NCBI GenBank assembly: GCA_002731275.1
Contig: PCBK01000080.1
Span: 1-64,000 of the forward strand
Direction: 5' to 3'
Length of the DNA stretch: 64,000 nt
Source: Deltaproteobacteria bacterium
GTDB taxonomy: Bacteria; Myxococcota_C; UBA6777
Below are positions 6,338-62,498 of the stretch, in pieces; position 1 is the first letter of the stretch; every line of letters begins with the position of its first letter. The notes beneath the pieces are model-generated. The model made no database searches. It saw only the letters and a program-made list of their open reading frames with translations, and was not told where the DNA came from. Made by a program: the position numbers and the translations under genes.

Positions 6338-7468
<1,131 letters not shown>

Positions 7469-20028: not shown

Positions 20029-20065
20029 GTTCGCTCCCCACAACGCACACTTTCTGACCTTCTGT

Positions 20066-20629: not shown

Positions 20630-20643
20630 GTCAGTGCTCCTGT

Positions 20644-40509: not shown

Positions 40510-42462
40510 ATGAACCCAGGTGATTTGTTCGCACAAGGTAGATATACGCTGCTTCGAAAGCTTCGTAGTAGTGGTATGGCTGAAGTTTGGCTTGCCCGAC
40601 AGCACGGGACGGAGGGGTTTGCAAAGGACGTTGTCCTCAAACGTATTTTGCCCCATCTCGCTGAAGATGAGAAGCTGATCTCCATGTTTTTGGATGAAGG
40701 GCGGATCGCGGCGAATCTCAACCACCCCAACGTCGTTCAAATTTTTGATCTCGGCAATGATGGCGTCGATTACTACATCGCCATGGAGTACATCCGAGGA
40801 TACGATCTCGAACAAATCCAAGAACAGCTTCGCAAACGCAACGTCGCCTTTCCTGTCGAGTACGCGCTTCGTATCATCGCGGACACATGTCTTGGTCTGG
40901 ACTACGCCCACGACTGCAAAGCCTCCGATGGGACTCCTATGAACGTCGTGCACAGGGATGTCTCACCACAAAACATCCTCGTCTCAGAGACAGGCGTCGT
41001 GAAGTTGATCGACTTTGGTATCGCAAAAGCCAGGACATCTTCGACACGCACACAGGTCGGCCATACAAAAGGCAAGATCTGTTACATGTCTCCTGAACAG
41101 ATGATGGCACGTGATCTCGATCGACGTAGTGATATTTTCTCAGCAGGTGTGGTCCTCTATGAATCACTGTTGAGCTTGAAACCCTTTGATGGGGACAACT
41201 TGCTCGCTTGCTTTCATAAGCTGATGAAAGAGGGGATCATCCTCCCTCGACAAGTTCGCCGTGATATCCATCCTGAGCTTGAACATGTCATGATGACCGC
41301 GCTCGCCAAAGATCGTGATGAACGCTATCCGACTGCCGGGGCTTTTCGACGTGCGCTTGAGCAATTTTTACGTGGACAGGGGATCTCTGTTGGACCTGAG
41401 CATCTGAGTGATTTCCTCAAGTGGTTGTTTACACCAAATGATTCCACACAAGTTGCGTTGGATCTTCCTTATGCGGTGGCCCAACAGAATGGTGCAAAAC
41501 CCCTCTCCAGTCCATCAGTCCCTGCTGGCAATGGTTTTGGTACAGAAGATCGTGTCGCAGCACATGCTGGGCGTGTGACGGCTTCTGGTGCCCCTCAGCC
41601 TCAGCACGCAGGTCGGCAAACGTCACCTGCAGGGACACCGCCTGGACCACAAGGATTCCCCCAAGGGCCGATGGCACCTCCTCATGGTGTCTCAGATCCT
41701 AATGTTCCTCACTCAGGCTTCTTCCAAGGGGCACCTGCTCCATCAGCTCACTACCAGACCGGACCTTCTCTGGGCGCGCTTGCTGGCTCTGATCCTGCAC
41801 TCGGCGGAATTGGTGTGCACTCTACCGGACCCTCCTTGGGCGTACCGATGGAGTTCAACGATGATGATGAACTCCATTACCGCGGTCGTAAAAAGCGTTC
41901 TTCTGGTGGTGTGTGGATCTACATCTTGCTGCTCTTTGTCCTCGCTGCTGGTGGTGTTTTGACAACACACTTTCTCGGGGTCTTGCCTGGATTTACGTCG
42001 GCTAGCGTGGTGACAAAGGATGCTGGTACACCGACACCTCCCCGGATCGCAACAGTGAAGCAAGACGCCGGCACACCCGATGTGCGTAAGGTCCCTGTGA
42101 GGAGCAAGCCTGATGCCAGACGGACAAAACCTGTTAAGCGTCGTGCCAAGCCGGACAAAAGGAAGAGCACCAAGCGCACAAAGCCTGTCGCTCGCAAAGT
42201 CGAAAGACGTCCTCCACCAAAAAGAAGAAAAAAACGTCGGGTGCGTGGGTGGGGATATGTGATCATTGACACTGATATCCGCGCGCGGGTCAGCATCGAC
42301 GGTAAACTGAATTACATCCGCGTCCCGCTCCTCAAAAAGAAGAAGATCAAGGCAGGGTGGCACAGACTTCGTTTTATCTCTCCCGCAGGGACAAAAGTGA
42401 AGCGGGTGTATATCACCCCTAACAAAACCAAAGACATTTACGTACGCCTTCGCTCCCGCTGA
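40510..42462 (+). CDS. Membrane Ser/Thr protein kinase with PEGA-like C-terminal domain
   Basis: The 650-residue product has a Hanks-type kinase domain at about residues 10-280: VVLKRI (Lys), HRDVSPQNIL catalytic loop, DFG, and GKICYMSPEQ. The glycine loop is atypical (KLRSSGMAEVW). HRDVSPQN is the variant common in myxobacterial kinases. A Pro/Gly/His-rich linker follows (~330-455), a membrane helix at about 476-498 (VWIYILLLFVLAAGGVLTTHF), a Lys/Arg/Pro-rich stretch, and a C-terminal PEGA-like domain (GWGYVIIDTDIRARVSIDGK). It is probably an inner-membrane receptor kinase with an extracytoplasmic sensor, and may phosphorylate ligands read by the FHA proteins, which is inference. Confidence 0.9.
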   Translation: MNPGDLFAQGRYTLLRKLRSSGMAEVWLARQHGTEGFAKDVVLKRILPHLAEDEKLISMFLDEGRIAANLNHPNVVQIFDLGNDGVDYYIAMEYIRGYDLEQIQEQLRKRNVAFPVEYALRIIADTCLGLDYAHDCKASDGTPMNVVHRDVSPQNILVSETGVVKLIDFGIAKARTSSTRTQVGHTKGKICYMSPEQMMARDLDRRSDIFSAGVVLYESLLSLKPFDGDNLLACFHKLMKEGIILPRQVRRDIHPELEHVMMTALAKDRDERYPTAGAFRRALEQFLRGQGISVGPEHLSDFLKWLFTPNDSTQVALDLPYAVAQQNGAKPLSSPSVPAGNGFGTEDRVAAHAGRVTASGAPQPQHAGRQTSPAGTPPGPQGFPQGPMAPPHGVSDPNVPHSGFFQGAPAPSAHYQTGPSLGALAGSDPALGGIGVHSTGPSLGVPMEFNDDDELHYRGRKKRSSGGVWIYILLLFVLAAGGVLTTHFLGVLPGFTSASVVTKDAGTPTPPRIATVKQDAGTPDVRKVPVRSKPDARRTKPVKRRAKPDKRKSTKRTKPVARKVERRPPPKRRKKRRVRGWGYVIIDTDIRARVSIDGKLNYIRVPLLKKKKIKAGWHRLRFISPAGTKVKRVYITPNKTKDIYVRLRSR

Positions 42463-45219: not shown

Positions 45220-47349
45220 ATGAGGTACGAGATGGACCAAACAATTCAAAATGTCAAAACGCTCCTGAAAGGGGTGTTTGGTCTCGGTTTATTTTTCGGT
45301 TTGATGTTGTTTTCAGCAAACAACGCCTATGCACAACCTGCAAACTGCTTGCCCTCTGACTTGTTGTTGGTCATCGACCACTCCGGTAGTATGACGGGGC
45401 GTACTTCAAGCGGTGAGACAAAGTGGAGCGCTTCTTCGAAAGCCTTTAACACACTGCTCACACAATACGCAACCAAGCTCCGCTTCGGTCTGGTGACCTT
45501 CTCTACCACCGCAAAGCTGCGCGTGAATGTCGGTCCCAACACCGCCAACCAATGTCTCTCCATCTTGAAACAGACCAATCCCAGTGGTCGTACCGCGATG
45601 AAGTGCGCGATGGACATCTCCTACAACCACTTCAAAAACACTGTCATCCCACGTGACTCTGTGAAAGACCGACGCCGCTTCGTCGTCCTTATCACAGATG
45701 GTATTCCCAACGAATGTGGAACCAACGTCGTTCCCTCCGTCGCACGTCTTCGTTCGATCGGAGTCGGTGGTGCGAATTACGACGTCAAAACATTTGTCAT
45801 TGGCTTTGGTTCAGGGGTAGACAAAACACAGCTTCGCAACATGGCGGTTGCTGGCGGTACCCAAAAATACTACCAAGCGGATAACTTCTCCGATCTGACC
45901 AAGGCGCTGACTACGATCGCAAACGGTGCTTCTAAAGAGATCTGTGATAACAAAGACAACGACTGCGATGGCGTCGTGGATAACTTCAATGAGATCTGTG
46001 TCGCGACATGTGGTGCAGGTACACGTACCTGTAAAAACGGACAATTCACACAATGTACGACCAACAAACAGCCCTCCAAAGAGATCTGTAACAAGATTGA
46101 CGATGACTGTAACGGTAAAATCGATGACAATCTGACTCGTCCTTGCGGAAACAACTGCGGGACAGGTACAGAGACTTGTAAACTTGGTAAGTGGGTCAAT
46201 TGTACGGCACCCGGTGTGGGCGTTGAGACCTGTAACGGTAAAGACGATGACTGTAACGGTCGTATCGACGAAGGCCTCTCCAAAGAATGTTCCACCAAGT
46301 GTGGAAAGGGTACACAAGCTTGTGTCCAGGGTGACTGGAGCACTTGTACAGCCCGCCAACCACAACCTGTCGATGCATGTGATGGTATTGATAACGACTG
46401 TGATGGAAAGGTCGACAACAACGCCACATGTCCCGGTAAAGGAAAGTGCTATGCTGGTGATTGTCTGACCGCATGTACTGGTGAGTGTAAAGTCGGTGAG
46501 TACTGTGCCCCCGATGGATTCTGCCGTCCCAAAAACTGTACCCCCGAGTGTCCCGAAGGACAATTCTGTCGTCAAGGAGCGTGCTTTAACGCTGACTGTA
46601 CGACCCCCGAGGGCAAGTGTCAGGCTGGAGAAATCTGCCGTAGTCGTCGTTGTTTCCGTGACCCCTGTGCGGGCGTAACTTGTGCTGCTGACCAATTCTG
46701 CCTGAATGGCGAATGTCGTCACTCATGTGCCAAAGTCCAAGGCACTTGTAAGGCCGGTGAAGTCTGTAAAAATGGTGTCTGTACAAAAGATGATTGTGCG
46801 AGCAAGGTCTGTGCTGACGGTTACAGCTGTGTAAACGGCCAATGTGAAGCGCAGAAGTGTCCAAATGGATGTCCCCAAGGCCAATACTGTGAAGGCACTG
46901 TCTGTGTCGACTATCCCTGTAAATACGTCCAATGTCCCAGCGGACAAACATGCTCCAATGGTGACTGCTACGATCCCAATAAGTTGCCCCCCAACTACGA
47001 TCCAAATGCGACAAACACCAACGGTTCAAGCGCAACAGGTGGGACAGGCACAACTTCCACAGGTACGACTTCCACAGGCACAAACTCGACGGGTACAACT
47101 TCCACAGGCACAACCTCGACAGGTTCAACGGCCAACGGTTCGAGCGCAACGGGCGCAACTGGTTCTATCAGTAGCGCCAACGCAACAGGCGCAAACGGAG
47201 CGACTGCAAACGGAACGAATGCAAATGGTGGCAATCGTCCGACCAATGGTGCTTGTGTATGTTCTTCTGCTCACCTTGAGCCGACCTTCCCCATCTCCTT
47301 CCTCATCCTCTTCGTCTTGATGCCAATGATGTTCCGTCGACGTAAGTAA
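45220..47349 (+). CDS. Secreted VWA/MopE-repeat protein with Thr/Ser/Gly linker and MYXO-CTERM-like tail
   Basis: The 709-residue product has AAGGA upstream of the ATG. Signal peptide to about residue 39 (ANNAYAQ). The VWA domain at about 43-240 has MIDAS DHSGSM. Only four MopE-type repeats follow (~243-405; CDNKDNDCDG, CNKIDDDCNG, CNGKDDDCNG, CDGIDNDCDG). A Cys-rich EGF/TIL-like region spans about 410-590. A low-complexity Thr/Ser/Gly linker (repeated TSTGTTSTG) lies at about 600-670. The tail has GACVCS, a hydrophobic helix and RRRK, a MYXO-CTERM-like signal. It has the same overall plan as the genes at 28603 and 31784 but fewer repeats. Confidence 0.88.
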   Translation: MRYEMDQTIQNVKTLLKGVFGLGLFFGLMLFSANNAYAQPANCLPSDLLLVIDHSGSMTGRTSSGETKWSASSKAFNTLLTQYATKLRFGLVTFSTTAKLRVNVGPNTANQCLSILKQTNPSGRTAMKCAMDISYNHFKNTVIPRDSVKDRRRFVVLITDGIPNECGTNVVPSVARLRSIGVGGANYDVKTFVIGFGSGVDKTQLRNMAVAGGTQKYYQADNFSDLTKALTTIANGASKEICDNKDNDCDGVVDNFNEICVATCGAGTRTCKNGQFTQCTTNKQPSKEICNKIDDDCNGKIDDNLTRPCGNNCGTGTETCKLGKWVNCTAPGVGVETCNGKDDDCNGRIDEGLSKECSTKCGKGTQACVQGDWSTCTARQPQPVDACDGIDNDCDGKVDNNATCPGKGKCYAGDCLTACTGECKVGEYCAPDGFCRPKNCTPECPEGQFCRQGACFNADCTTPEGKCQAGEICRSRRCFRDPCAGVTCAADQFCLNGECRHSCAKVQGTCKAGEVCKNGVCTKDDCASKVCADGYSCVNGQCEAQKCPNGCPQGQYCEGTVCVDYPCKYVQCPSGQTCSNGDCYDPNKLPPNYDPNATNTNGSSATGGTGTTSTGTTSTGTNSTGTTSTGTTSTGSTANGSSATGATGSISSANATGANGATANGTNANGGNRPTNGACVCSSAHLEPTFPISFLILFVLMPMMFRRRK
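47040..47150 (+). repeat. Thr/Ser/Gly low-complexity coding repeat
   Basis: Repeated 15-bp units (acttccacaggtacg-like) encoding T-S-T-G-T, forming the flexible stalk before the C-terminal anchor of the third VWA gene. Confidence 0.7.
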
Positions 47350-48486: not shown

Positions 48487-49740
48487 TCAAGCTGATTTTT
48501 TACTTTCCTGGTAAAGGAAGGTGGCTGCACCACCACGTGTAATCACATCTGCGTCGATGATACACTCTTTGACACCTTCCATAGAAGGAAGGTCGTACAT
48601 GATGTCGAGCATCACAGATTCGAGGATGGCACGAAGTCCACGGGCACCACTTCCTCTTCCTACGCAGATGGAGGCGATACTGTGGAGGGCCTCTTCTGTG
48701 AAGTGGAGTTTGACACCTTCCATCTCAAAGAGTTTTTCGTACTGTCGAGCCAACGCGTTTTTGGGCTCAAGGAGGATGCGCACGAGGTTCTCTTCGTTAA
48801 GGTCGTGAAGCGTCGTGACAACAGGGATACGGCCGACAAACTCGGGGATGAGCCCAAATTTGATCAGATCTTCAGGCTCGACCTTGGCGAGCAGCTCGCC
48901 GAGTCGATAATCTTTTTTGCTGCGAATGTCCGCATGGAAACCAACCTGAGAGCCGGAGATGCGACGTTCGATCGATTTTTCGATGCCGTGGAACGCACCA
49001 CCTACGATGAACAGGATGTTGGATGTGTTGAGTTGGATAAACTCTTGGTGTGGGTGTTTACGTCCACCACGAGCGGGGACGTTTGCGACTGTCCCTTCGA
49101 CCATCTTGAGGAGGGCCTGCTGGACACCTTCACCGGAGACGTCACGTGTGATGGAGGGGCTGTCACTTTTGCGCGCGATTTTATCGATCTCGTCGAGATA
49201 GATGATGCCTCGCTCTGCAGCTGCTACGTCGTAATCTGCGGCTTGTAGGAGACCTACGAGGATGTTCTCAACGTCTTCACCTACGTAGCCAGCTTCAGTC
49301 AGTGTCGTAGCGTCGGCGATCGCGAAGGGGACTTTGAGCATCCGCGCGAGACTTTGTGCGAGCAGAGTCTTTCCACATCCTGTAGGACCGAGCAACAAAA
49401 TGTTCGACTTTTGTAGCTCGGTCTCGTGGTTGTGTTGTTCGCTTTCAACGCGTTTGTAGTGGTTGTAGACGGCGACGGAGAGGTTCTTTTTCGCGCTGTG
49501 TTGACCGATCACATATTCATCCAAAAACGCTTTGATTTCCATCGGTTTTGGGATGCTTAAGCGTGGGCGATATTCATCGCTAGAGGCGTATTCGTTCGCG
49601 ATAATGTCGTTGCATAGTTCGACACATTCGTCACAAATGTACACATTTGGGCCTGCGATCAGCTTTCGCACTTCGTGTTGGCTTTTTTCACAAAATGAGC
49701 AGGCCAGTCGTTTGGGTTGGTGTTTGTCTCTACGTGCCAT
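48487..49740 (-). CDS. clpX: ATP-dependent Clp protease ATP-binding subunit ClpX
   Basis: The 417-residue AAA+ unfoldase feeds substrates to ClpP. The N-terminal zinc-binding domain has Cys at 14, 17, 36 and 39. Walker A is GPTGCGKT, and the pore loop GYVGEDV and Walker [10 protein letters not shown] are present. The sensor/box VII region has [16 protein letters not shown], and sensor II is GARGLRAI. The ClpP-docking loop reads VGF where E. coli has IGF. Length is normal. clpP is not adjacent in this window, so the pair is split here. The upstream region has two inverted repeats. Confidence 0.97.
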
Positions 49741-49974: not shown

Positions 49975-49997
49975 TTGTCATCTTGTCATTGTGACAA
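49975..49997. promoter_or_regulatory. Cluster of TTGTCA half-sites (candidate activator binding site)
   Basis: TTGTCA (49975-49980), then a perfect 6-3-6 palindrome TTGTCA-TTG-TGACAA (49983-49997). It lies about 130-150 bp upstream of the sigma-54 promoter at 50127, a usual enhancer distance. Confidence 0.4.
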
Positions 49998-50126
49998 AGA
50001 CTTGATGGGCTTCATTTCTCTCTGTACGTGCTTTGCTGTGGTCATTTGTATCAACCTTATCTTGCAGTCTTTTTATGATGACAATAGGAGGCTTTTTGTT
50101 GCGCATTCACTTTCTTGGATTGATTG

Positions 50127-50142
50127 TGGCATGATCTCTGCT
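50127..50142 (+). promoter_or_regulatory. Predicted sigma-54 (-24/-12) promoter of NtrC-type regulator
   Basis: TGGCATGATCTCTGCT fits the consensus TGGCAC-G-A/G-N4-TTGCA/T with GG-N10-GC spacing; it differs mainly at the C-to-T and T-to-C positions. It lies about 93 bp before the GTG start. A TTGTG-A-CACAA dyad (50184-50194) lies in the leader. Confidence 0.6.
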
Positions 50143-50234
50143 TGGGAAAATGACTTTAGCGCTGTATGTTGTATACACAGCTTTTGTGACACAACGTGGA
50201 ATGGATCATTTTTTGTCGAGAAACGAGGTGCAAA

Positions 50235-51641
50235 GTGAAGGAAGAGTACAAGCCAACGATCTTGATCGTAGACGATGACAAAGCCAACGTAGAGTCGTTA
50301 GAGCGCATTCTTAAACGCGAAGGATACGATTGCCTCATCGCGTTTGATGGAAAGCAAGGGCTCGATGTCCTTCGGAAATCACAGGTCGATCTCGTTGTCA
50401 CAGACATGTCCATGCCCAACATGGGAGGGCTTGAGCTGCTCAAAGCCATCAAGGCGATCTCGGACGAGATCGAGGTGATCATGGTGACAGCCTATGGGAC
50501 CGTTGAAAAAGCTGTTGAGGCCATGCAGCAAGGGGCTTTTCACTTCATCACCAAACCCTTCAAGCGAAAAGAGATCGTGCAGCTCTGTCAAAAAGCACTC
50601 GAACGTGTTCGACTGATCCAGGAGAACGAACAACTCAAACAGCGCATCCACGATTACGAGAATCCACGCTTGATCGTTGGGCCTTCTGTCGCGATGGGGC
50701 AGACGATGAACACACTTCAACTCGCTGGACCCAAAGATGTGACGGTCACGATCCGAGGTGAAAGTGGGACTGGGAAGGAGTTGATCGCCAAGGAACTCCA
50801 TCGACTCTCACCACGTCATGACAAGGGTTTTGTCGCGCTCAATTGCACGGCATTCCCTGAGACGTTGATCGACAGTGAGCTCTTTGGCTACGAAAAAGGT
50901 GCCTTCACAGGGGCAGATGGACCGAAAGCCGGTCGTTTTGAGCAAGCCGATGGTGGCACGCTCTTCCTCGATGAGATCGGTGAATTACCACCGAACGTGC
51001 AAGTGAAGCTCCTGCGAGTCCTACAAGAGCGGACGATTGAACGCCTTGGTGGGACAAAGTCCATCCCTATCGATATCCGCTTGATCTCCGCGACTCACCG
51101 AAATCTTGAAGAAGAGGTGAAGGCAGGACGTTTTCGTGAGGATCTCTACTACAGGATCAATGTGATCGAACTGAACGTCCCTCCCTTGCGAGAACGTCCC
51201 GAAGATATCGCTGTCCTGACACAGCACTTTATCAACAAATACAGCCAAAAATACCAACGCCCTCCACTGCACATCACACCAGAGGCGTTGGAGAGCCTGC
51301 AAAGTTATGACTGGCCAGGGAATGTTCGACAATTGGAAAATGTCATTCAAAAATCAGTGGTCCTCGCACCTGGCCAAGAACTCCAGATCCAAGACCTTCC
51401 AGAACAAATCCACGAGAGCAAGACACAAGGAAATTACTTCATGATCCCATTTGGCACACCGCTCGATGAGATCGAACGCCATGTGATCTCTGAAACTCTT
51501 CGTCGGACAGGGGACAAGAAGACGACTGCGCAGCTGCTTGGCGTCGCGACAAGGACGATATACCGCAAGCTAGAATCCTTCCAGCAGGCCGAAAAAAAGG
51601 AAGCCTCTGATACATCCACTTCGTCCGAAGACGATTCCTGA
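50235..51641 (+). CDS. NtrC-family sigma-54-dependent response regulator
   Basis: The 468-residue product starts at the GTG at 50235, with GAGG upstream. The receiver domain at 1-125 has acidic residues IVDDD and the phospho-acceptor Asp57 (VVTDMSMP). The AAA+ activator domain at about 145-385 has Walker A GESGTGKE, the sigma-54 contact loop GAFTGA, and LFLDEIGELP. The Fis-type helix-turn-helix is at about 430-455 (TAQLLGVATRTIYRKL). No histidine kinase is adjacent, so it is an orphan regulator here. It lies directly upstream of the T2SS operon and has its own sigma-54 promoter. Confidence 0.95.
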   Translation: MKEEYKPTILIVDDDKANVESLERILKREGYDCLIAFDGKQGLDVLRKSQVDLVVTDMSMPNMGGLELLKAIKAISDEIEVIMVTAYGTVEKAVEAMQQGAFHFITKPFKRKEIVQLCQKALERVRLIQENEQLKQRIHDYENPRLIVGPSVAMGQTMNTLQLAGPKDVTVTIRGESGTGKELIAKELHRLSPRHDKGFVALNCTAFPETLIDSELFGYEKGAFTGADGPKAGRFEQADGGTLFLDEIGELPPNVQVKLLRVLQERTIERLGGTKSIPIDIRLISATHRNLEEEVKAGRFREDLYYRINVIELNVPPLRERPEDIAVLTQHFINKYSQKYQRPPLHITPEALESLQSYDWPGNVRQLENVIQKSVVLAPGQELQIQDLPEQIHESKTQGNYFMIPFGTPLDEIERHVISETLRRTGDKKTTAQLLGVATRTIYRKLESFQQAEKKEASDTSTSSEDDS

Positions 51642-51715
51642 CCTCTCCTCAAGCACCTGTCCACTCTCTACATCCCTACTGAAAACATGTACGTAGATCT
51701 TTGTAAGGATGGCAG

Positions 51716-51728
51716 TGACATTTTGTCA
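51716..51728. promoter_or_regulatory. TGACA-TTT-TGTCA dyad upstream of T2SS operon
   Basis: Perfect 5-3-5 palindrome about 180 bp upstream of the sigma-54 promoter. It shares the TGACA half-site and the TTGTCATC block with the sites at 49975-49997. Candidate activator site. Confidence 0.4.
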
Positions 51729-51906
51729 TCATGGCTGTCTTCTTGATTTTTCCCTCCTATACCCGTATAGCAATGCTTTTTTTGACAAATTTGCACCCAA
51801 AGTCTGTACAAGGTGCGGTGGAGTTGTCACGATCTGTCCGCCACCATCCCCGCTCTTTTTGAAATGATTCTTGTTTTCTTTATGGAACTTGTTTTTTGAT
51901 TGGGCG

Positions 51907-51922
51907 CGGCATGAATATTGCT
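51907..51922 (+). promoter_or_regulatory. Predicted sigma-54 (-24/-12) promoter of T2SS operon
   Basis: CGGCATGAATATTGCT shows GG-N10-GC spacing with a full TTGCT -12 and GGCA -24. The first gsp gene starts at 51974, about 40 bp after the expected transcription start. It is similar to the promoter at 50127. Confidence 0.6.
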
Positions 51923-51973: not shown

Positions 51974-52648
51974 ATGATGCTTCGGACGTGGCCCATGACA
52001 TATTCCACAGGAAAGTGGTTGATCGCTGGCGGATTTCTCGCTGCTGCTGTGTGGTGGATGGTTGCATCACAACCTGTCCCATCGCCCACAAAGTCACGTG
52101 TGCCAGTTCGACAAAAGCATTCTGTGAAGGTTCCCACAGTCAAAAAGGCAAAGACACCTGCCAGACGACTTCCCAGCCCGGTCGCAAAGAAGAGCGTCAA
52201 GAAGGCAAAGAAGGGGCCTGTGTGCTCCTCGTGGACAAAAAACCTTCCTGCACATGACCGACCATCCAACTTCCCCTATCGCTTACAAGGAACAAGTGTC
52301 GCCGAGGTCTCGGCATCTAGTCTTGCGACCTTTCATGATATTGGACGCAAGCACACCGGCATCTACAAAGAGGGCGATACGCTCGGTACGGGTGTGCTCT
52401 GTCGTATTGAGCGAAAGCGCGTGTGGATCGCACAAAAAGGTTCGTTCTTTGTCGCGACCATCGAGCCCATTTCGCTCCCTGCTATACCACCTGCTCGACG
52501 GAATACAAAGAGACCAAGACGTGTCTTGAAGATCGATACCTACCGTTCGCTGCACGCGTTTCGTCGTCAGTTGAGGACAGAGGTTCGTTCGCTTCGTCGA
52601 CTGCGTACTCCACCATCTACACCGAAAAAACGAGAGGTTTCGCCATGA
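51974..52648 (+). CDS. GspC-like T2SS protein, HR domain only
   Basis: The 224-residue product has an N-terminal membrane helix (WLIAGGFLAAAVWWMVA, residues ~14-30) and a Lys/Pro-rich linker. A domain at about 95-165 (FPYRLQGTSVAEVSASSLATF, GIYKEGDTLGTGVLCRIERKRVWIAQKGSFFVA) matches the pattern of the GspC homology region that contacts the GspD secretin. There is no PDZ domain, and the tail is basic. The stop codon overlaps the start of the next gene in an ATGA junction. ATG is at 51974 or 51977, after AAGGA. It is likely a second GspC or a GspP-like accessory. Confidence 0.65.
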   Translation: MMLRTWPMTYSTGKWLIAGGFLAAAVWWMVASQPVPSPTKSRVPVRQKHSVKVPTVKKAKTPARRLPSPVAKKSVKKAKKGPVCSSWTKNLPAHDRPSNFPYRLQGTSVAEVSASSLATFHDIGRKHTGIYKEGDTLGTGVLCRIERKRVWIAQKGSFFVATIEPISLPAIPPARRNTKRPRRVLKIDTYRSLHAFRRQLRTEVRSLRRLRTPPSTPKKREVSP

Positions 52649-53616
52649 TCGAACGCCTTTTTCGCACGTACTTTTGGGTCCTTACGTTTGTATTTATGAC
52701 GTGTACAAGCTACTTCACGGCGGATATGTTTAGCACTCTCGTGCGTTTGTTTGTCGCGGCACCAACGCCTTACGTTGAGACGCCTAAAGTGACAAATCAC
52801 GCGGCATACTCAAAGCTTCGTGCACAGTTTGCGATTTTGAACAAGGGAAACTTGTTCGATACAAAAAATCAGCCCGTTGTCGCGAGCAAAGAGCCCCCAA
52901 AAAAACGCGAAACCAAGACGGACGCGTCCAAAACAGCCTCCTCTTGTGATCCGAATGGACAATACCAGCGCTCTTCCTTGCCGCTCCAACTGAAAGGGAC
53001 CGTGATCGCCTCGGACCCATCGTACTCTCTCGCTGTGATCTACGATGCACGTCGACGCAAGCGTTTTGTCGTGCGTGTCGGAGAGACATTTTTTGGGATC
53101 AAAATCTGCCGCGTGGAGCGTGACAAAAATAAAGGCTACGTAAAAATTGACCGGGGACAGGGAAGACTTGAATACTTGGAGCTTGGTGCTGCAGCCGGTC
53201 GTGGTGGTGGTTCGTATCGTCGAAAACTCTATCGCCACTATCGCAAACTGCGCAACACAAAGCTCGACCTCAGCAAGGTTCGTAAGCTCGGAGGCAACCG
53301 CTTCCGTATCTCGCGAAACTTTATCAACCAGATGACAGGGCGACTTGATATCCTGGCATCACAAGCTGCGATCGTGCCGTACTTCCAAAAAGGACGAAGT
53401 GTTGGTTTCCGCATCTACAACATCCGCAAAGGCTCTGTGTACCAAAAACTCGGTATCAAAAGCGGGGATGTGATCAAGCGAATCAACGGATATGAGTTCA
53501 CAAGTCCCCAAAAAGCCCTTGAAGCTTACAGCAACCTGACGAGCGCTGGGAACCTCTCTGTCGAGGTGATGCGTAAAGGCAAGGCGAAAAACCTCAGCTA
53601 CGAGGTGAAAGATTGA
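52645..53616 (+). CDS. gspC: Type II secretion inner-membrane protein GspC
   Basis: The 323-residue product starts at the ATG at 52645, overlapping the preceding stop. One membrane helix lies at about 10-30. The HR domain at about 115-180 (LPLQLKGTVIASDPSYSLAVIYD, VRVGETFFGIKICRVER) is followed by a linker and a C-terminal PDZ domain at about 235-320 (VGFRIYNIRKGSVYQKLGIKSGDVIKRINGYEF). GspC links the inner-membrane platform to the secretin. This is the complete GspC, in contrast to the shorter gene before it. Confidence 0.9.
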   Translation: MIERLFRTYFWVLTFVFMTCTSYFTADMFSTLVRLFVAAPTPYVETPKVTNHAAYSKLRAQFAILNKGNLFDTKNQPVVASKEPPKKRETKTDASKTASSCDPNGQYQRSSLPLQLKGTVIASDPSYSLAVIYDARRRKRFVVRVGETFFGIKICRVERDKNKGYVKIDRGQGRLEYLELGAAAGRGGGSYRRKLYRHYRKLRNTKLDLSKVRKLGGNRFRISRNFINQMTGRLDILASQAAIVPYFQKGRSVGFRIYNIRKGSVYQKLGIKSGDVIKRINGYEFTSPQKALEAYSNLTSAGNLSVEVMRKGKAKNLSYEVKD

Positions 53617-56117
53617 TGTTGCAAACATTTTACCACTCCACTCTTCGAGCTTTTTCATCTTCTCGCTCTGCGCGCAATCAAAGAGGAATGTTCATGTTTT
53701 CTATGCGTCCTTCAAACGCTGTCCGACCGCTTTTTCTCACTGGGATGTTGTGCCTGTTTGGGCTGACGTTGTGGCCACATGCGGCCTCTGCTGTCCCAAC
53801 GCCTTCCTCAACCCGTGGAAAAACACGTCTATTCTCCTCTAAAAAGCGCACGCGTTTGTTCCGCACCAAGCGCAACAAAAAAGTCATCCGTGTCGCGCAA
53901 AGCCGAAAAGGCAAGATCCTCGGAGACCGACGTGGTTGTCGTGTCAAGTGGAACCTTCGGATTCGTCCTGATTTCGACAAAGCGACATTGTTTGCGGTCG
54001 TCAAGTGGATCGCCAAGCAGACCTGTCAGAACTTCATCATCAGTGATCAGCTCAAGCGCAACCAATTACACATCATTACAGAGTCGCAAGTCACCGTTCG
54101 TAGTGTGTATCGTGCGTTCTTCTCTGCGCTTGAAGCCAATAACATGACCGCACAAAGAGTTGGGCGCTTTTGGAAGATCATTCGTGCACATCGCGCACGT
54201 CAACGAGCTATCCCAACGTACACAAACGGTCGCCTTCGTCACCCTCGTCGAGACGAGATGGTGACCTTCCTCTATCAGGTCAAACACCTTGATATCTATC
54301 GTGTCTCTGGTCTGTTGCGTCAGCTCTGCTCACCATCAGGTGGGATCGTCACACATAAATCGAGCAACAAGATCCTGATCGTCGACTACGCGTCCAACCT
54401 CTACCGGGTGCTCAAAATCATCAAGACACTCGATATTCCCCAGGCCGCAACCAAAGAAGAACTTCATATCCTCCAGGTCAATCACGCAAAAGCCCAGGAA
54501 GTCGCACAAAAAATTCGACAACTGTTTGAAGTTGGACGTCGACGTAAAGCGCGTATTGTACGTCGTGTTCGCCGAAGAAGAACGAAGAAGCGCGCCAAAC
54601 TCCGGAAGACGACTTCCTCAAAAAGTACGGATGATGGTGGAGATGCCTACCGTATCAACAAACTCGTCCCTGATGAGCGTACAAATCAGATCATCGTCCT
54701 GGCGAACAGACGTGCTGTTGAACGCGTGAGGAAGTTGATCAAGGACCTGGATATTGCGCTGCCTGGCGACGGACAGATTCGCGTTCACTATCTCAAGTAC
54801 GCAAGCGCCGAAGAGTTGGCACAAGTGCTCTCTCAAATTACCCAAGGGACCAAGCAAAAACGTCGGGTAAGACGTCGACGTCGTACCTCTACACCCAAGA
54901 AAGCCGCAGAGCTGTTCGAAGGTGAGGTGAAGGTCACTGCGGACAAAGCGACCAACTCACTCGTCATCGTCGCCAGTCGTCGCGATTACGAGAGCATGCT
55001 TCGGGTCATCAGACAGCTCGATATCTCCCGTAAGCAGGTCTTTATCGAGATTGTTATCCTCGAACTCAACCTGACAAGACAACGCGAACTTGGTCTGACC
55101 TTTCACGCAGGGACCAACCTGACGGATGAACAGAATCCTTCGCTTGGTATCGCTGGGACACGATTGAGTGGTTTAAACTCTCTTGTTCTCGACCCTACAG
55201 CGCTTACAGGGCTCGCATTTGGTTTGCAAGGCAAGGCCATCCCAGGTGTGAGTGACCTGCTCGGCTCGGCCCTTGGAAGTATTCCCTCTTTTGGTGTGAT
55301 GTTGCGTGCGCTTCAGAGTAACACCGACGTCGACATCATCTCCACACCTCACATTCTCACAACGACCAACAAAGAAGCCACCTTGCAAGTTGGACAAAAC
55401 GTTCCGTTTATCGCAGGGACGACGTTTACAGGGACCAGTCTTCCTGGTGTCCCCAACATCCAAAATATCCAACGCCAAGATGTCGCCTTGACCCTCAAGA
55501 TCAAACCTCAAGTCGACGCTGGTGATTATGTACGGCTCGATTTCCAACAAGAACTCACGGAGCTTGCAGGTCAGGATCCCGAGCTTGGACCGACGACCAC
55601 AAAGCGCCAGATCAAGACTGTCATCCTGGCGCGTGACAAACAAACGGTTGTGATCGGTGGTTTGGTTCGTGACAAGGTCACGAATGGTGCTTCGAAGGTG
55701 CCTCTGCTTGGGGATTTGCCTTTGATCGGTGCGTTGTTTCGCGTCAAAAACAAGATCAAAGAGAAACACAGTATGTTGGTGTTTTTGACACCACACATCA
55801 TCAACCACACCAATGATTTTCGTAAGATTTTTGAGCAGAAGATGAAAGAAAGACAACAGTTTGTCGAGATCTTCTATGGAAAGCGCGAGATCAAGGTCCC
55901 CGATAACTTCAACTACGATCGCACACGTGGTCTCGTCGACTTGATGAGGCAAAAGTTGAAGACCTCTGGCAAAGAGGTCGGTGTGATGAAACGAAAAAAT
56001 CTGAGCATCGAGAAGAAGAGACGTCCTTTGCCGTTCAGTCCAAAGGAAAAACCCAAAGTACGTCGCCCCATGCCTCGTAAGATCCCTGTACCCAGCGTGA
56101 AGCCTGCGAGTCGGTAA
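53616..56117 (+). CDS. gspD: Type II secretion secretin GspD
   Basis: The 833-residue product begins at the ATG at 53616, which overlaps the gspC stop (TGATG). A second ATG at 53694 after AGAGGA would give a more conventional signal peptide (MFSMRPSNAVRPLFL...ASA). N0/N1-N3 domains lie at about 100-470 (RPDFDKATLFAVVKWIAKQT, VKHLDIYRVSGLLRQL, INKLVPDERTNQIIVLANRR). The secretin pore domain is at about 490-740 (VFIEIVILELNL, VDIISTPHILTTTNKEA, VGQNVPFI, VVIGGLVRDK, VPLLGDLPLIGALFR). Arg/Lys-rich inserts lie between the N domains. It forms the outer-membrane channel. Confidence 0.95.
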   Translation: MLQTFYHSTLRAFSSSRSARNQRGMFMFSMRPSNAVRPLFLTGMLCLFGLTLWPHAASAVPTPSSTRGKTRLFSSKKRTRLFRTKRNKKVIRVAQSRKGKILGDRRGCRVKWNLRIRPDFDKATLFAVVKWIAKQTCQNFIISDQLKRNQLHIITESQVTVRSVYRAFFSALEANNMTAQRVGRFWKIIRAHRARQRAIPTYTNGRLRHPRRDEMVTFLYQVKHLDIYRVSGLLRQLCSPSGGIVTHKSSNKILIVDYASNLYRVLKIIKTLDIPQAATKEELHILQVNHAKAQEVAQKIRQLFEVGRRRKARIVRRVRRRRTKKRAKLRKTTSSKSTDDGGDAYRINKLVPDERTNQIIVLANRRAVERVRKLIKDLDIALPGDGQIRVHYLKYASAEELAQVLSQITQGTKQKRRVRRRRRTSTPKKAAELFEGEVKVTADKATNSLVIVASRRDYESMLRVIRQLDISRKQVFIEIVILELNLTRQRELGLTFHAGTNLTDEQNPSLGIAGTRLSGLNSLVLDPTALTGLAFGLQGKAIPGVSDLLGSALGSIPSFGVMLRALQSNTDVDIISTPHILTTTNKEATLQVGQNVPFIAGTTFTGTSLPGVPNIQNIQRQDVALTLKIKPQVDAGDYVRLDFQQELTELAGQDPELGPTTTKRQIKTVILARDKQTVVIGGLVRDKVTNGASKVPLLGDLPLIGALFRVKNKIKEKHSMLVFLTPHIINHTNDFRKIFEQKMKERQQFVEIFYGKREIKVPDNFNYDRTRGLVDLMRQKLKTSGKEVGVMKRKNLSIEKKRRPLPFSPKEKPKVRRPMPRKIPVPSVKPASR

Positions 56118-56155
56118 CGTATCTTTACGATGTGCATTGTGCAAAGGAGCCAAAG

Positions 56156-57952
56156 ATGAGCGAAACACAACCCACAACAGGATTCTCCGAATTGACCCAA
56201 ATCAGCGGGATCCCTGCTGGTGCGTTGGTCGGATTCCCTGTCGAGCAGATCCTCGTGCGTCGCGGTGTGCTCGACGCCGATAAGCTGCAACAAGCTGAGC
56301 TGCTCGCTGAAGAGCGAGCCGAACCCCTCGAAGATGTCTTGCTCTCGATGAAAGCCATCACCGAAGAGGATCTGCTTTACGCTCGCAGCGAACAACTGGA
56401 TATCCCCTACGGAGATGAGATTGACCCCAAAGAGATCCCTGCCGAGCTGCTCGATAAGCTCTCGATCTCCTTCTCCAAACAAGCGCTGATTCTACCACTC
56501 TCACTCGAAGATGGTCTGCTGACTGTTGCTTGTGCAGATCCCTATGACGTCGAGACGTTTGACCAGATACGGATGTTGTTGCAGGCGGAACCGATCCCTC
56601 TGTTGTATTCAAAGCAGGCACTGCTCAAGGCGATCAACCAGACATACGATCTGCTTCAGGCCAGCTTTGGCTTTGAGGACGCCCACGACGAGCTTGAAGA
56701 GGTGGGAAGCAAGCAGGACGATGAGTTCTCCGACATCGGCGAAGCGATGGACCTTCTCGATGCTTCGGATGATGAAGCACCCGTCATCCGATTGGTCAAC
56801 GCGCTTATCTACCGCGCGATGAAAGAGAGAGCGTCCGATATCCACATCGAGCCCTTTGAGAAAGAGGTCGTTGTACGCTTTCGTATTGACGGTATCTTGA
56901 GCCAGGTGACGACGGCTCCAAAGAGAGCGCAATCACACATCGTTGCGCGTATCAAGATTATGAGTCAGTTGGACATCGCAGAGAAACGACTCCCACAAGA
57001 TGGTAAAATCCGTCTGAAGATCGCAGGGAAAGACCTCGACCTTCGTGTCTCCACGATCCCTACAGCACACGGTGAACGCTGTGTTCTCCGTTTGCTCGAT
57101 AAATCAAACGTCTTGTTGGACCTGAGTTCCATCGGGTTTAGCCGAGAAAATCTCGACACGTTTGAAGGTTTGATCTCCCGTAGTCACGGTATTATTCTCG
57201 TTACAGGTCCGACAGGTTCGGGGAAAACAACGACGCTTTACTCCGCGCTCAGCCGGATCAACTCACCTGACAAAAACATTCTTACAGTCGAAGATCCCGT
57301 AGAGTATCAGCTCAAAGGGATCGGACAGATGCAGGTCAACTCGAAGATCAAATTGACCTTCTCAAGTGGTCTTCGCGCGTTCTTGCGTCAAGACCCCGAT
57401 GTCATCCTCGTCGGTGAGACTCGTGACGCTGAGACCGCAGAGATCGCGATCCAGGCGTCGCTCACTGGTCACCTCGTCTTCACTACACTCCACACCAACG
57501 ACTCCGCGACGGCTTTTACTCGTCTGATCGATATGGGGGTTGAACCCTTCCTCGTCGCTTCTTCGGTTGTTGGGATCCTGGCACAACGTCTCGTGCGTTG
57601 CGTCTGTCCTGATTGTCGCGTCCCCTACAAACCAACACCCGGCCAACTCGAACAAATTGGCCTGACACCTGAGGAAATTGAGCCTGACCAAGTGTTTTAC
57701 CACGCGAGTGACAAAGGCTGTGAGACTTGTAACTTCTCTGGTCACCGTGGTCGTTCGGGCCTGTATGAACTGTTGTTGGTCGATGACGACATTCGCTCGA
57801 TGGTGATGCGCAATGAGCCTGCTGGTAAGGTCAAGCAGATCGCGATTCAAAAAGGGATGTTGTCACTTCGGGAAGATGGTGCGCAGAAGATTATCCAAGG
57901 AAAAACAACGATCGAAGAGGTCTGTCGTGTCACTTCGGAAGATGGGACGTAA
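56156..57952 (+). CDS. gspE: Type II secretion ATPase GspE
   Basis: The 598-residue product starts at the ATG at 56156, seven bases after AAGGAG. The N-terminal domain spans about 1-180. The ATPase core has Walker A TGPTGSGKTTT, the Asp box (VEDPVEYQ), Walker B (RQDPDVILVGETRDAETA) and the His box (GHLVFTTLHTND). The tetra-cysteine zinc motif CVCPDC...CETC lies near 490-530. It powers pseudopilus assembly on the cytoplasmic face. A 38-bp gap follows gspD and a 53-bp gap precedes gspF. Confidence 0.96.
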   Translation: MSETQPTTGFSELTQISGIPAGALVGFPVEQILVRRGVLDADKLQQAELLAEERAEPLEDVLLSMKAITEEDLLYARSEQLDIPYGDEIDPKEIPAELLDKLSISFSKQALILPLSLEDGLLTVACADPYDVETFDQIRMLLQAEPIPLLYSKQALLKAINQTYDLLQASFGFEDAHDELEEVGSKQDDEFSDIGEAMDLLDASDDEAPVIRLVNALIYRAMKERASDIHIEPFEKEVVVRFRIDGILSQVTTAPKRAQSHIVARIKIMSQLDIAEKRLPQDGKIRLKIAGKDLDLRVSTIPTAHGERCVLRLLDKSNVLLDLSSIGFSRENLDTFEGLISRSHGIILVTGPTGSGKTTTLYSALSRINSPDKNILTVEDPVEYQLKGIGQMQVNSKIKLTFSSGLRAFLRQDPDVILVGETRDAETAEIAIQASLTGHLVFTTLHTNDSATAFTRLIDMGVEPFLVASSVVGILAQRLVRCVCPDCRVPYKPTPGQLEQIGLTPEEIEPDQVFYHASDKGCETCNFSGHRGRSGLYELLLVDDDIRSMVMRNEPAGKVKQIAIQKGMLSLREDGAQKIIQGKTTIEEVCRVTSEDGT

Positions 57953-59301: not shown

Positions 59302-59757
59302 ATGAACTTCTTGTTCCAATCCACACAGTCCCGCGCTTCCCGCCGAGGAAAGCGTTTGCGTCGCCAACTCGGTATGACCTTGATCGAGATCATGGTCGTC
59401 GTCGTCATCATCGGTCTGATCAGTACAGTCGTTGGTGTCGCGCTGATTCGTAACCTCGAAGACGGAAAAGTCGGAACAGCTCGTACACAGGTCTGCAACC
59501 TGAAGGCTGCCTTGACTGCGTATCGTATTAAAAAAGGACGTTACCCCACAAACGCTGAAGGTCTCAAAGCGCTCGTCTCTTCTGGAAACCTCCAATCCAA
59601 GAAAGTCCCCAAAGATCCTTGGGGTCGTGAGTACTTCTACCGCTTCCCCAGCGCGACCAACCCCGAAGAGCCAGATGTCCTCTCCTACGGATATGACGGA
59701 AAAGAAGGTGGTACAGAGTACAACACCAAAGATATTCGTTGTGAAAAAGACGACTGA
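59302..59757 (+). CDS. gspG: Major pseudopilin GspG
   Basis: The 151-residue product has a basic leader of 24 residues and prepilin-peptidase site G24-M25 with Glu at +5 (LGMTLIEIMVVVVIIGL). It has the GspG core (QVCNLKAALTAYRIKKGRYPT, AEGLKALV, VPKDPWGREY) and the calcium-binding C-terminal loop region (YGYDGKEGGTEYNTKDI). GGAGG lies upstream. It is the major subunit of the T2SS pseudopilus. The adjacent gene is a divergent GspG-like copy. Confidence 0.95.
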   Translation: MNFLFQSTQSRASRRGKRLRRQLGMTLIEIMVVVVIIGLISTVVGVALIRNLEDGKVGTARTQVCNLKAALTAYRIKKGRYPTNAEGLKALVSSGNLQSKKVPKDPWGREYFYRFPSATNPEEPDVLSYGYDGKEGGTEYNTKDIRCEKDD

Positions 59758-59885
59758 GAATGCTCTCTGAGCTGACGAACAAATCGTCAGCTTGACCCTC
59801 TTTGTTTGTATGTCGATGACCCACACACCGTCGATATACATTGTCCATTTGGATATGTCGGCCAACACCGACTGGTGGGAGTGAT

Positions 59886-60317
59886 ATGACACAACAACAA
59901 GATCACAACAAGACCATTCTTCCACCGAAGGAACAAGTTTTTCACATCCGATATCTGCTGTTGGCTTTGCTGCTGACGGGTGGGTGTTTGTTGGGTGTGA
60001 CACTCGGCGCCGCTGGCGCAGAAGATGACTCTATGCGCGTCTCTACAGCGAAACGACACATCTGTCATCTTCAGGCCGCGTTGCGGCTCTACCAAATCGT
60101 CAAAGGCCACTACCCGACCAAAGCGCAAGGACTTCAAGTGCTTCAGCAGCTCGAAGGGTTGGCCTTTAAAAAGATCCCCAAAGACCCTTGGGGACATGCT
60201 TATGTCTATCGAGTGAGCACAACACCACAAGGGACGATCCCTGAAGTAACCTCGTATGGGGCAGATCGACGTCCTGGAGGTGTGACACCGATGGCCAGAG
60301 ATATCCGCTGCGAGTAA
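59886..60317 (+). CDS. GspG-like protein lacking a prepilin cleavage site
   Basis: The 143-residue product starts at the ATG at 59886 after GGGAG. The C-terminal part parallels the preceding GspG (HICHLQAALRLYQIVKGHYPTKAQGLQVLQQL, KIPKDPWGHAYVYRV, YGADRRPGG, ARDIRCE). The N-terminus has a plain hydrophobic helix (IRYLLLALLLTGGCLLGVTLGAAGA) with no G-F/M-T-L-x-E motif. It therefore would not be processed as a pseudopilin; it may be membrane-anchored and interact with the pseudopilus, or be a decayed duplicate kept in frame. Its stop directly abuts the gspH start. Confidence 0.8.
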   Translation: MTQQQDHNKTILPPKEQVFHIRYLLLALLLTGGCLLGVTLGAAGAEDDSMRVSTAKRHICHLQAALRLYQIVKGHYPTKAQGLQVLQQLEGLAFKKIPKDPWGHAYVYRVSTTPQGTIPEVTSYGADRRPGGVTPMARDIRCE

Positions 60318-61070
60318 ATGATGAAACACAAGGCACCCAAATGGCGTAAAGCACGCGTCCGAGAACGAGGCATGACCCTCATCGAGATCCTGATCGTCGT
60401 CGCGATCGTCGGTGGGATTCTTGCCGTCGCGATCCCCTCGATCAACGCCCTCACACACTTGAAGCTGCGAGAGACTTCGACCAAATTGTCCGGAGTGATT
60501 CGTTACCTCTACAGCCAGGCTGCGTTGAAGGGGCTCTGTATGCGCCTTGTGTTCGACCTGAGGAACAACATTTATCACGTCGAAGCGAGCACGGATGGTC
60601 ATTGCCTTGTCGATGACGAGCAAAAATCTGCGAGAAAAGCCAAGAAGAAAGAAAAAGAGAAGAAAAAGAAGCTCAAAGAGAAGAAGGAAGAGAGCAACGA
60701 CGACTCCTCTGTCGGCGGTTGGAAAGGGGAAAAGCCCATCTCTCTCAAGATCAAGAAGGCGACCTTCACGCAGTACAACAAAGGGTTACTACGTCGACGT
60801 ATCCTGCCTGTCAAAATCCATGGCATCTACGTCGATCACCAAAAAGAAGTCTACAGCAAGAAAAAGGGACCGCAGTACACGTACATTCACTGCTTTCCTC
60901 TTGGCCGCTGTCAACGCGCAGTCATCTATCTCGAAGACAGCAGCGGCTCGATCATGTCTTTGGAGGTGCAACCCCTCACAGGGCGGGTCAAAGTCCACAA
61001 CAAGAAGATCAAGCTGGAAGATTATCACCTCGATCGCAAAAAAGGAGAAGACGATGTTGGCGGCTTTTAA
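60318..61070 (+). CDS. gspH: Minor pseudopilin GspH (with Lys/Glu-rich insert)
   Basis: The 250-residue product starts with ATGATG immediately after the previous stop. The cleavage site is G18-M19 with Glu at +5 (RGMTLIEILIVVAIVGGIL). The pattern LSGVIRYLYSQAALKGLCMRLVFDLRNN fits GspH/FimT-type pseudopilins. An unusual charged stretch (about 108-131, KKKEKEKKKKLKEKKEES) interrupts the globular domain. It is longer than the usual ~170 residues because of this insert. The 3' end overlaps gspI by 17 bp. Confidence 0.85.
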   Translation: MMKHKAPKWRKARVRERGMTLIEILIVVAIVGGILAVAIPSINALTHLKLRETSTKLSGVIRYLYSQAALKGLCMRLVFDLRNNIYHVEASTDGHCLVDDEQKSARKAKKKEKEKKKKLKEKKEESNDDSSVGGWKGEKPISLKIKKATFTQYNKGLLRRRILPVKIHGIYVDHQKEVYSKKKGPQYTYIHCFPLGRCQRAVIYLEDSSGSIMSLEVQPLTGRVKVHNKKIKLEDYHLDRKKGEDDVGGF

Positions 61071-61758
61071 GCGAGCACAACAAGCTCCCGAGGCTGGGTT
61101 TACCCTGCTCGAAGTGTTGGTCTCTATCGCGATCCTCGCGATGGGCTTTATGGTGCTGCTCGATTCACAAGGTGGCAGCGTGAAGATGACGCTCTACGCA
61201 AAGAACCTGACTGTCGCGACACAACTCGCGCGGGCAAAGATCGCGCAACTCCAACAGCAAATCGAAGATAAAAAACTGCGCTTTGGCCTCGACAAGAGCG
61301 TCTGCAAAGATGGCGATTTCAACGAAGAGGGCAGCGAGTTCAAGAAGTTTAAGTGGAAGTATTGTATCAAAAAGGTCGAGTTTGCGACTCCCGATCAGCT
61401 CCCCGGTCTCGGAGGGGGCGGTGGTGGCGGTGACGGCGAAGGTGGTGGAGAGAAAGGTGGGCAGGCGCAAGCCATGATGGCCGCGCTCGGTATTCCCTCG
61501 ACTGGCTCGGATGCAAGTTCTGTCGCGAGTGGCATTGGTTCGGCGCTGGGACCTTTTATGGGGATCTTAAAGTCCCAGATGAAGGTGATCTTCGAACAAT
61601 TGCAAGAATCTCTTCGGGAGATCCAGGTCACCATCAGCTGGAAAGATGGTCGTGAGCCTGACAAGCTGAGTATCACCACACATATCTTTCACTTTAACCG
61701 TGCGACAGGGCTGCCTGATGGATGGCCTGCGCAAAATCCAAATCAAGCGACACAGTGA
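61054..61758 (+). CDS. gspI: Minor pseudopilin GspI (with Gly-rich insert)
   Basis: The 234-residue product starts at the ATG at 61054, seven bases after AAGGAG, inside the end of gspH. The cleavage site is G15-F16 with Glu at +5 (AGFTLLEVLVSIAILAMGF). The usual GspI continuation (ATQLARAKIAQLQQQ) is followed by a Gly/Glu-rich low-complexity insert (about 115-150, GLGGGGGGGDGEGGGEKGG) before the C-terminal beta region (IQVTISWKDGREPDKLSITTHIF). It is about twice the normal length. It is expected to pair with GspJ and GspK at the pseudopilus tip. Confidence 0.85.
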   Translation: MLAAFKRAQQAPEAGFTLLEVLVSIAILAMGFMVLLDSQGGSVKMTLYAKNLTVATQLARAKIAQLQQQIEDKKLRFGLDKSVCKDGDFNEEGSEFKKFKWKYCIKKVEFATPDQLPGLGGGGGGGDGEGGGEKGGQAQAMMAALGIPSTGSDASSVASGIGSALGPFMGILKSQMKVIFEQLQESLREIQVTISWKDGREPDKLSITTHIFHFNRATGLPDGWPAQNPNQATQ

Positions 61759-61763
61759 GCGAG

Positions 61764-62498
61764 ATGATGCGTTCTTCACAGACAAATACACGCTCTACGG
61801 CGAACAGACAGACAACATTTACTTCGAGCCGGTTTCGTTCACAGGCTGGTATGAGCTTGTTGGAGATCCTGATCGCGGCGTTCCTGTTGAGCATGATTGG
61901 TATCGTGATGGCGGACTCTGTTGGTCGCGTCAACCGCACAAAAGAGTTGCTCGTCGAGGTCAACGATATCCACCACGCTGCGCGTGTCGTTCTCGATCGT
62001 ATGTGCCGGGAGCTTACAATGGCCTTCTACACTGGACGCATTAACGGACTCGATCAGAGCCGCGCGCCCAAAACGATCTTCAAAGGAGAGGATGAGACAC
62101 CCATCTCCAAGCTGACCTTTAGCTCCTTTTCCCATATTCGCATCGTACGAAATGCTCGCGAGTCCGACCAGAATATCGTCAGCTACTATGGCAAGTCCAA
62201 CGCTAAAAAGCGAGGGGTGTACAGGCTATTTCGGCGCGAAAAGACCGTCATCGACGCTGAGCCAGACAAGGGCGGCGTCTCGCAGATGCTTCTCGACAAC
62301 GTCGTCTCTTTGCGTATTCGGTACTGGGATCGTCAAAAAACAGATTGGGTACGTGAGTGGGACACTGAACGTATCGAGAACGCTCTCGCGATCCCGCCAC
62401 TCGTCGAGATCAAACTCGTCTTGCAAGATGAGGGCGGCAAAAAAATGACCTTTTTAACTCGGACAAAGATCTTTATGTCCGAACGACTCACACGCTGA
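61764..62498 (+). CDS. gspJ: Minor pseudopilin GspJ
   Basis: The 244-residue product starts at the ATG at 61764, six bases after the gspI stop; the frame is also open with an ATG at 61722 inside gspI. The leader runs to G29, then M30 with Glu at +5 (AGMSLLEILIAAFLLSMIGI). The GspJ pattern is seen in RVVLDRMCRELTMAFYTG and SLRIRYWDRQKTDWVREWDTER. It is a tip-complex minor pseudopilin of normal length. Confidence 0.9.
   Translation: MMRSSQTNTRSTANRQTTFTSSRFRSQAGMSLLEILIAAFLLSMIGIVMADSVGRVNRTKELLVEVNDIHHAARVVLDRMCRELTMAFYTGRINGLDQSRAPKTIFKGEDETPISKLTFSSFSHIRIVRNARESDQNIVSYYGKSNAKKRGVYRLFRREKTVIDAEPDKGGVSQMLLDNVVSLRIRYWDRQKTDWVREWDTERIENALAIPPLVEIKLVLQDEGGKKMTFLTRTKIFMSERLTR

Follow-up and report, generated by a model that had tools for sequence, protein, structure and literature searches.

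Closest described systems

To my knowledge, the control of type II secretion system (T2SS) expression in Myxococcota has been little described. In a genome-scale survey by matrix scans (PLoS One 2025; PMC12316311), the T2SS COGs were enriched for sigma-54 promoters in Myxococcia. The locus described here agrees with that prediction in placing T2SS genes under sigma-54 control, whereas the accessible part of the survey names no T2SS activator, operator or surface-protein co-target and does not extend to the phylum of the present genome. The gsp operon of Myxococcus xanthus contains a promoter, at MXAN2511, to which Nla28 binds (J Bacteriol 2022; PMC9765219). Since gspD is MXAN_2514 (PMC3222651), MXAN2511 lies downstream of gspD, and the Nla28-bound promoter is internal to the operon. 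Nla28 is likewise a sigma-54 activator acting on gsp genes, but it is a kinase-paired starvation regulator with 8-bp binding repeats, and its promoter has the core GGGCGCG-N4-TTGCA. The conserved site at the present locus is a TGACA-N3-TGTCA palindrome, whereas the Nla28 regulon sites are tandem 8-bp CTCCGGCC-type repeats.

Enhancer-binding proteins devoted to one secretion cluster that has -24/-12 elements are HrpR/HrpS, the T6SS enhancer-binding proteins and DVUA0100 of Desulfovibrio vulgaris (PMC4641369). These T3SS and T6SS activators serve injection systems, while here the general T2SS is the target; most Myxococcaceae have a single operator per genome, located at the T2SS, and the second target is a surface protein. 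An earlier note on this DNA had called sigma-54 control of a T2SS operon no textbook arrangement. This is fair, although such control has been predicted for Myxococcia (PMC12316311), and an internal Nla28-bound gsp promoter has been reported (PMC9765219). A literature search that covered few subscription papers found no mention of MXAN_2516, MXAN_2561 or MXAN_2562 and no description of a regulon of this activator, operator and surface protein; earlier work may exist.

Sigma-54 elements and the T2SS operon

The window is the whole stretch of DNA analysed, 64,000 nucleotides of contig PCBK01000080.1. Its genome has one copy of rpoN (PF04552, E 1.9e-63). Two elements with GG-N10-GC spacing, one upstream of an NtrC-type activator gene and the other upstream of a gsp operon, were read in the sequence at the sites reported in the earlier note:

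50127..50142, + strand: sigma-54 -24/-12 element upstream of the activator gene, TGGCATGATCTCTGCT; 17.0 bits, best in the window
51907..51922, + strand: predicted sigma-54 -24/-12 element of the T2SS operon, CGGCATGAATATTGCT; 14.3 bits, counterpart before gspC in 35/35 genera

The first element ends 92 bp before the GTG at 50235, and the second ends 51 bp before the ATG at 51974. Both elements have TGGCAC/TTGC-like boxes on the right strand and in the right place. With a weight matrix that approximates the published -24/-12 consensus, the 17.0 bits of the first element had p = 0.001 and the 14.3 bits of the second p = 0.003 in first-order Markov shuffles of their own gaps. Four sites of at least 14 bits exist on both strands of the 64 kb, and two of them are these elements. 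The remaining two, at 21628-21643 (+) and 42103-42118 (-), score 15.9 and 15.8 bits. A loose consensus scan of the whole window with two mismatches gave no excess (15 found vs 19 expected); thus, the case rests on position and conservation.

The second element is followed by a T2SS operon, in which GspD, GspE, GspF and GspG exceed their NCBIfam cut-offs and are accompanied by GspC and minor pseudopilins:

51974..52648, + strand: gspC1, an extra GspC HR-domain paralog of 224 aa without PDZ, first operon gene here; NF041515, E 3e-12
52645..53616, + strand: gspC (TM, HR and PDZ), overlapping the gspC1 stop; Pfam T2SSC and PDZ_2; start MIERLFRTYF
53613..56117, + strand: gspD secretin; TIGR02517, 505 bits, over cut-off
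56132..57952, + strand: gspE ATPase with MshEN domain; TIGR02533 over cut-off, PF05157
58006..59280, + strand: gspF; TIGR02120 over cut-off
59302..59757, + strand: gspG major pseudopilin; TIGR01710 over cut-off
59841..60317, + strand: second GspG-like pseudopilin; TIGR01710 below cut-off at 54 bits, 47% identity with gspG
60318..61070, + strand: gspH-like minor pseudopilin; TIGR01708 below cut-off
60595..61758, + strand: gspI-like pseudopilin; PF07963 and operon position
61722..62498, + strand: gspJ-like gene; PF11612
62510..63907, + strand: gspK-like gene; NF037980, PF21687

The N-methyl motif of the gspI-like ORF is at residues 166-188, so that its true start lies near 61080. Past the window end (L307), the operon continues with a PilM/GspL-like gene, gspM, an unassigned ORF and a gene for a weakly CxxCxxCC-like protein, and gyrase/topoisomerase genes follow. 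The earlier note had placed the 51907 promoter before the first gsp gene. That gene is indeed gsp-like, but it is the short extra gspC1, and the full-length gspC starts only at 52645. A gspC1 between the promoter and the true gspC was found in the window's genome only; gspC itself comes first in the four family relatives (G001-G004).

Is the promoter conserved? When the upstream regions of relatives were compared, as the earlier note had proposed, the -24/-12 element proved to be kept at gspC but not at the activator gene, where G001-G004 score below 2 bits. Among genomes with the activator-gspC order, one per genus, an element of at least 12 bits precedes gspC in 35/35 genera vs 0.5 expected by shuffles, a count that overstates independence because relatives of common ancestry are not independent trials. 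In most Myxococcota, these elements (for example, TGGCACCTGGCTTGCT) lie 12-40 bp from the start codon. A separate search for gspC covered 30 Myxococcota genomes in which the two genes are apart or loosely linked, all chosen for having an activator ortholog, and 25 of the 27 scorable loci have an element of at least 12 bits. In other phyla, 2/11 GspC genes reach 12 bits, one with the site 186 bp upstream and the other with the site inside the gene. An exception is L057, a Myxococcales MAG, in which gspC abuts the activator gene with no gap and no element. In G001 and G003, a TTGACA-N16-TATGAT box lies upstream of the sigma-54 element (L049, about 7015-7045; L051, reverse strand), which suggests that sigma-70 transcription may add to gsp expression there and that this genus may have a dual sigma-70/sigma-54 promoter.

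The activator and its operator

The activator gene and its divergent neighbour are as follows:

50235..51641, + strand: NtrC-type enhancer-binding protein with a receiver, a sigma-54-interacting AAA+ domain with GAFTGA and a Fis-type HTH (HTH_8); domain matches
48487..49740, - strand: clpX, at the same place in G001-G004; Pfam zf-C4_ClpX and AAA_2, synteny

The 50235-51641 product has the receiver-AAA-HTH domains of a group I bacterial enhancer-binding protein, and its orthologs keep GAFTGA, the phospho-acceptor Asp57 and the HTH. It shares this architecture and the GAFTGA motif with the nitrogen regulator NtrC (NR(I)), from which it differs in operator, targets and neighbourhood. Its TIGR01818 (NtrC equivalog) score is 441.5 bits, below the cut-off of 558.6, and the protein is thus NtrC-type, not NtrC. 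The description of the activator as an orphan holds locally, since neither the ORFs scanned at 36.6-49.7 kb nor those annotated downstream through the operon include a histidine kinase. In the whole genome, the activator domain has 49 matches, of which about 39 are strong. Upstream of clpX are genes for a Ser/Thr protein kinase (40510-42462) and for a VWA protein with MopE-type metal-binding repeats (45220-47349).

All five genomes examined from the window's phylum have an activator ortholog, with 59-66% identity in the other four, and all five show the clpX / activator / gspC-gspD synteny. In Myxococcota, 155/195 genomes have an ortholog over a strict cut-off. Among the 80 of these 155 loci that were read, gspC and gspD directly follow the activator gene in most Myxococcaceae, Anaeromyxobacteraceae and several further families, the genomes having been assigned to families by me. 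Judging from the numbering, the M. xanthus activator would be MXAN_2516.

Two operator-like sites, neither of which is assigned to a strand, lie between the activator stop codon and the gsp promoter:

51715..51729: main operator (UAS), GTGACATTTTGTCAT (TGACA-N3-TGTCA); 18.2 bits with a relatives-only matrix, best in the window, conserved in relatives
51782..51796: second, weaker operator-like site, TTGACAAATTTGCAC; 11.3-12.6 bits

In the relatives, the TGACA-N3-TGTCA palindrome is found in the same gap, about 65-190 bp upstream of the pre-gspC sigma-54 element, and the spacing from operator to -24 is 116-118 bp in most Myxococcaceae. The pattern TGACAWWWTGTC occurs just once per genome, in the activator-gspC gap, in nine Myxococcaceae of 9-13 Mb (G180, G177, G145, G120, G135, G151, G181, G195 and G187), while the reversed-pattern control had zero occurrences in these nine genomes. 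A tenth Myxococcaceae genome, G155, has three sites. A variant pattern, TTGACANNNTGTC, was dropped in favour of TGACAWWWTGTC because its N3 was too loose and its first T too strict. In Anaeromyxobacteraceae, the operator has changed to TTGCCAAWTTGGC at both of the targets described in this study (L217-L225, L244, L245). This sequence occurs at most twice per genome, with no exact occurrence in 2/7 Anaeromyxobacteraceae genomes searched, and the recognition-helix residues of the activators of this family show no obvious change matching it.

A joint scan of the whole window (sigma-54 element of at least 10 bits with an operator of at least 9 bits at 50-220 bp, the 9-bit limit having been set after the value was seen) returned exactly two places, upstream of the activator gene and of gsp. 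Other TGACAWWWTGTC sites in the window's genome are not counted as targets; most have no good adjacent sigma-54 element, and their number is near the base-composition expectation. Another strong operator-like site, CTGACAAAGTGTCAA at 32042-32056 (17.4 bits), falls within a large ORF (31784-35713) with no sigma-54 element nearby. Elsewhere in the genome (G000:C83; L312/L348), an operator-like site is followed 144 bp downstream by a 15.0-bit sigma-54 element and then by a gene for a basic, secreted protein of 139 aa that belongs to no known family.

A second target of the same arrangement

It was found that the operator and a sigma-54 element also lie upstream of the MXAN_2561-family gene. The family has a single match in each of 16 genomes searched. 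An operator of at least 12 bits and a sigma-54 element of at least 10 bits jointly precede the gene in 12/12 Myxococcota vs 0.002 expected. In the Anaeromyxobacteraceae G090, G091 and G101, the other TTGCCAAWTTGGC site lies 87 bp before a sigma-54 element, which is followed by the gene for a secreted MXAN_2561-family protein with a MYXO-CTERM-like tail; G222 and G065 likewise have the TGACA operator and a sigma-54 element before the gene. In the window's phylum, the pair is at the same place but weaker, with 11.3 and 7.7 bits in the window's own genome.

Against NF045522, which has a cut-off of 150 bits, the proteins of 8 Myxococcaceae score above the limit, while those of several other families stay below it at 98-117 bits. 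The MYXO-CTERM-like tail (GGC-TM-RRR) was seen in three Anaeromyxobacteraceae family members, and the protein of the window's genome has a CFI-box and a beta-barrel in its place. In the latter genome (G000:C141, about 19,500-21,650; L361), MXAN_2561- and MXAN_2562-like parts are fused into one 701-aa protein with the CFI-box between them, and in G222 (L347) the two families are likewise in one ORF. It is known that the T2SS carries surface and secreted proteins, including MYXO-CTERM proteins such as TraA (PMC11980579), and the MXAN_2561-family protein may itself be T2SS cargo.

Two more operator/sigma-54-like pairs precede T2SS paralogs. One stands before a second gspD in the window's genome (G000:C86, about 1,400-3,700; L313/L337), where TTGACAAAATGTC and the weak sigma-54-like AGGTACATTTTTTGCT lie upstream, and no other gsp gene was present in the 4.2 kb read. 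The other is before a GspC paralog in G003 (C74, about 830-2194; L321/L338), with the operator TGACAAATTGTCA and a sigma-54-like element upstream and no other gsp gene found within 14 kb.

Since the operator is common to the two targets and has changed at both in Anaeromyxobacteraceae, it points to one trans-acting protein. Most simply, the gene for this protein would be the activator gene kept beside gspC.

Possible autoregulation of the activator gene

The earlier note had also suggested that the activator gene is autoregulated. A further operator-like site bears on this:

49975..49989, no strand assigned: degenerate operator TTGTCATCTTGTCAT, 152 bp upstream of the -24 element of the activator gene; 9.2-9.8 bits, shuffle p 0.08

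An everted repeat at 49983, TTGTCATTGTGACAA, was rejected as an operator, since its half-sites are oriented opposite to those of the conserved operator and it scores 4.4 bits.

With the strong element at 50127 and the degenerate operator upstream of it, positive autoregulation is plausible in this genome, and I would put it at about an even chance. The alternative, that the 50127 element matches by chance or is used by a different enhancer-binding protein and that the activator gene is not autoregulated, falls slightly short of even. It would agree with the gap before the activator gene in G001-G004, which has no such element, and with the degenerate state of the sole operator-like site before this gene in the window. 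Because the element is missing in these four relatives, autoregulation is not a conserved property here. Yet a chance match would have to be the best site of the window and, at the same time, unique among the 27 activator genes of the genome, as none of the 26 others scorable exceeds 10.3 bits upstream; it would also have to lie at one of just two joint sigma-54/operator places in 64 kb. Moreover, in Myxococcaceae a different and weaker GG-N10-GC element, GGAAy-N5-TTGCA, precedes the activator gene in 9/22 genera vs 0.46 expected, which again speaks against the alternative.

Proposed mechanism and other explanations

Activator-linked sigma-54 control of the T2SS, as predicted from the sequence, is well supported, since the element, the operator and the neighbourhood are conserved and the operator recurs at a second target. 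Very probably, this locus forms the centre of a sigma-54 regulon dedicated to type II secretion, in which the activator co-activates the T2SS and a surface protein. An unlinked histidine kinase would presumably phosphorylate the receiver domain of the activator (50235-51641), which would then bind TGACA-N3-TGTCA at 51715, with the weaker second site at 51782. Via DNA looping and ATP hydrolysis, it would open the sigma-54 RNA polymerase held at 51907 and thereby turn on the whole gsp operon. The MXAN_2561-family gene would be the second target of the same operator and sigma-54 arrangement, so that the machine and the surface protein may be induced at the same time. In the window's genome, the activator gene may add positive autoregulation through its own -24/-12 element at 50127 and the degenerate operator.

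Three other explanations were weighed against this regulon. That both -24/-12 elements are chance matches would fit the loose window scan, which had no excess of matches, but the conservation before gspC in 35/35 genera, the uniqueness of the operator and the second target in common make it barely credible, and the gsp element already contradicts it. Another regulator in trans, such as an Nla28-type enhancer-binding protein, might use the operator while the neighbouring activator is a passenger. In M. xanthus, Nla28 does bind to a fragment of an internal gsp promoter (PMC9765219), and the operator stays at gspC where the activator and gsp genes are apart; on the other hand, Nla28 sites are not the palindrome, the activator is the gene kept beside gspC in most families, and all 30 genomes of the separate gspC search keep an activator ortholog, for which they were chosen. 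I regard such a passenger role as unlikely. Slightly more unlikely still is that gsp is transcribed mainly together with the activator gene from upstream promoters, or by sigma-70, with the -24/-12 element playing a minor part. The activator-gspC gap showed no terminator-like site, G001 and G003 have sigma-70-like boxes in this gap, and L057 lacks the gap altogether, all of which would suit readthrough or sigma-70. However, the element and the operator stay at gspC despite intervening genes (L180, L195/L259) or separation of the genes, and a look for sigma-70-like promoters in the activator-gspC gap of the window gave none.

Biological implications

The activator, operator, promoter and second target of the predicted T2SS regulon can now be named, and each is testable by single point changes in a laboratory strain. 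Sigma-54 is reported to be vital in M. xanthus (Keseler and Kaiser 1997, cited in PMC12316311). The control of the T2SS is a candidate contribution to this essentiality. A mutant with an insertion in MXAN_2510, which belongs to the same gene run, is viable but has impaired motility and development (PMC9765219). Thus, T2SS control alone need not explain why sigma-54 is essential, and the idea that it does so fully was dropped. As a wider and tentative proposal, which I hold somewhat less probable than its opposite, the two-target sigma-54 regulon may predate the split between Myxococcota and the window's phylum and may tie T2SS assembly to the production of one specific surface protein of the MXAN_2561/2562 family; T2SS demand or assembly would be sensed by the activator, and the T2SS target would contribute to the essentiality of sigma-54 in Myxococcus xanthus. 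The signals are conserved throughout a phylum of soil-dwelling predatory bacteria and in a little-known phylum next to it, which makes the control of their export machine directly testable.
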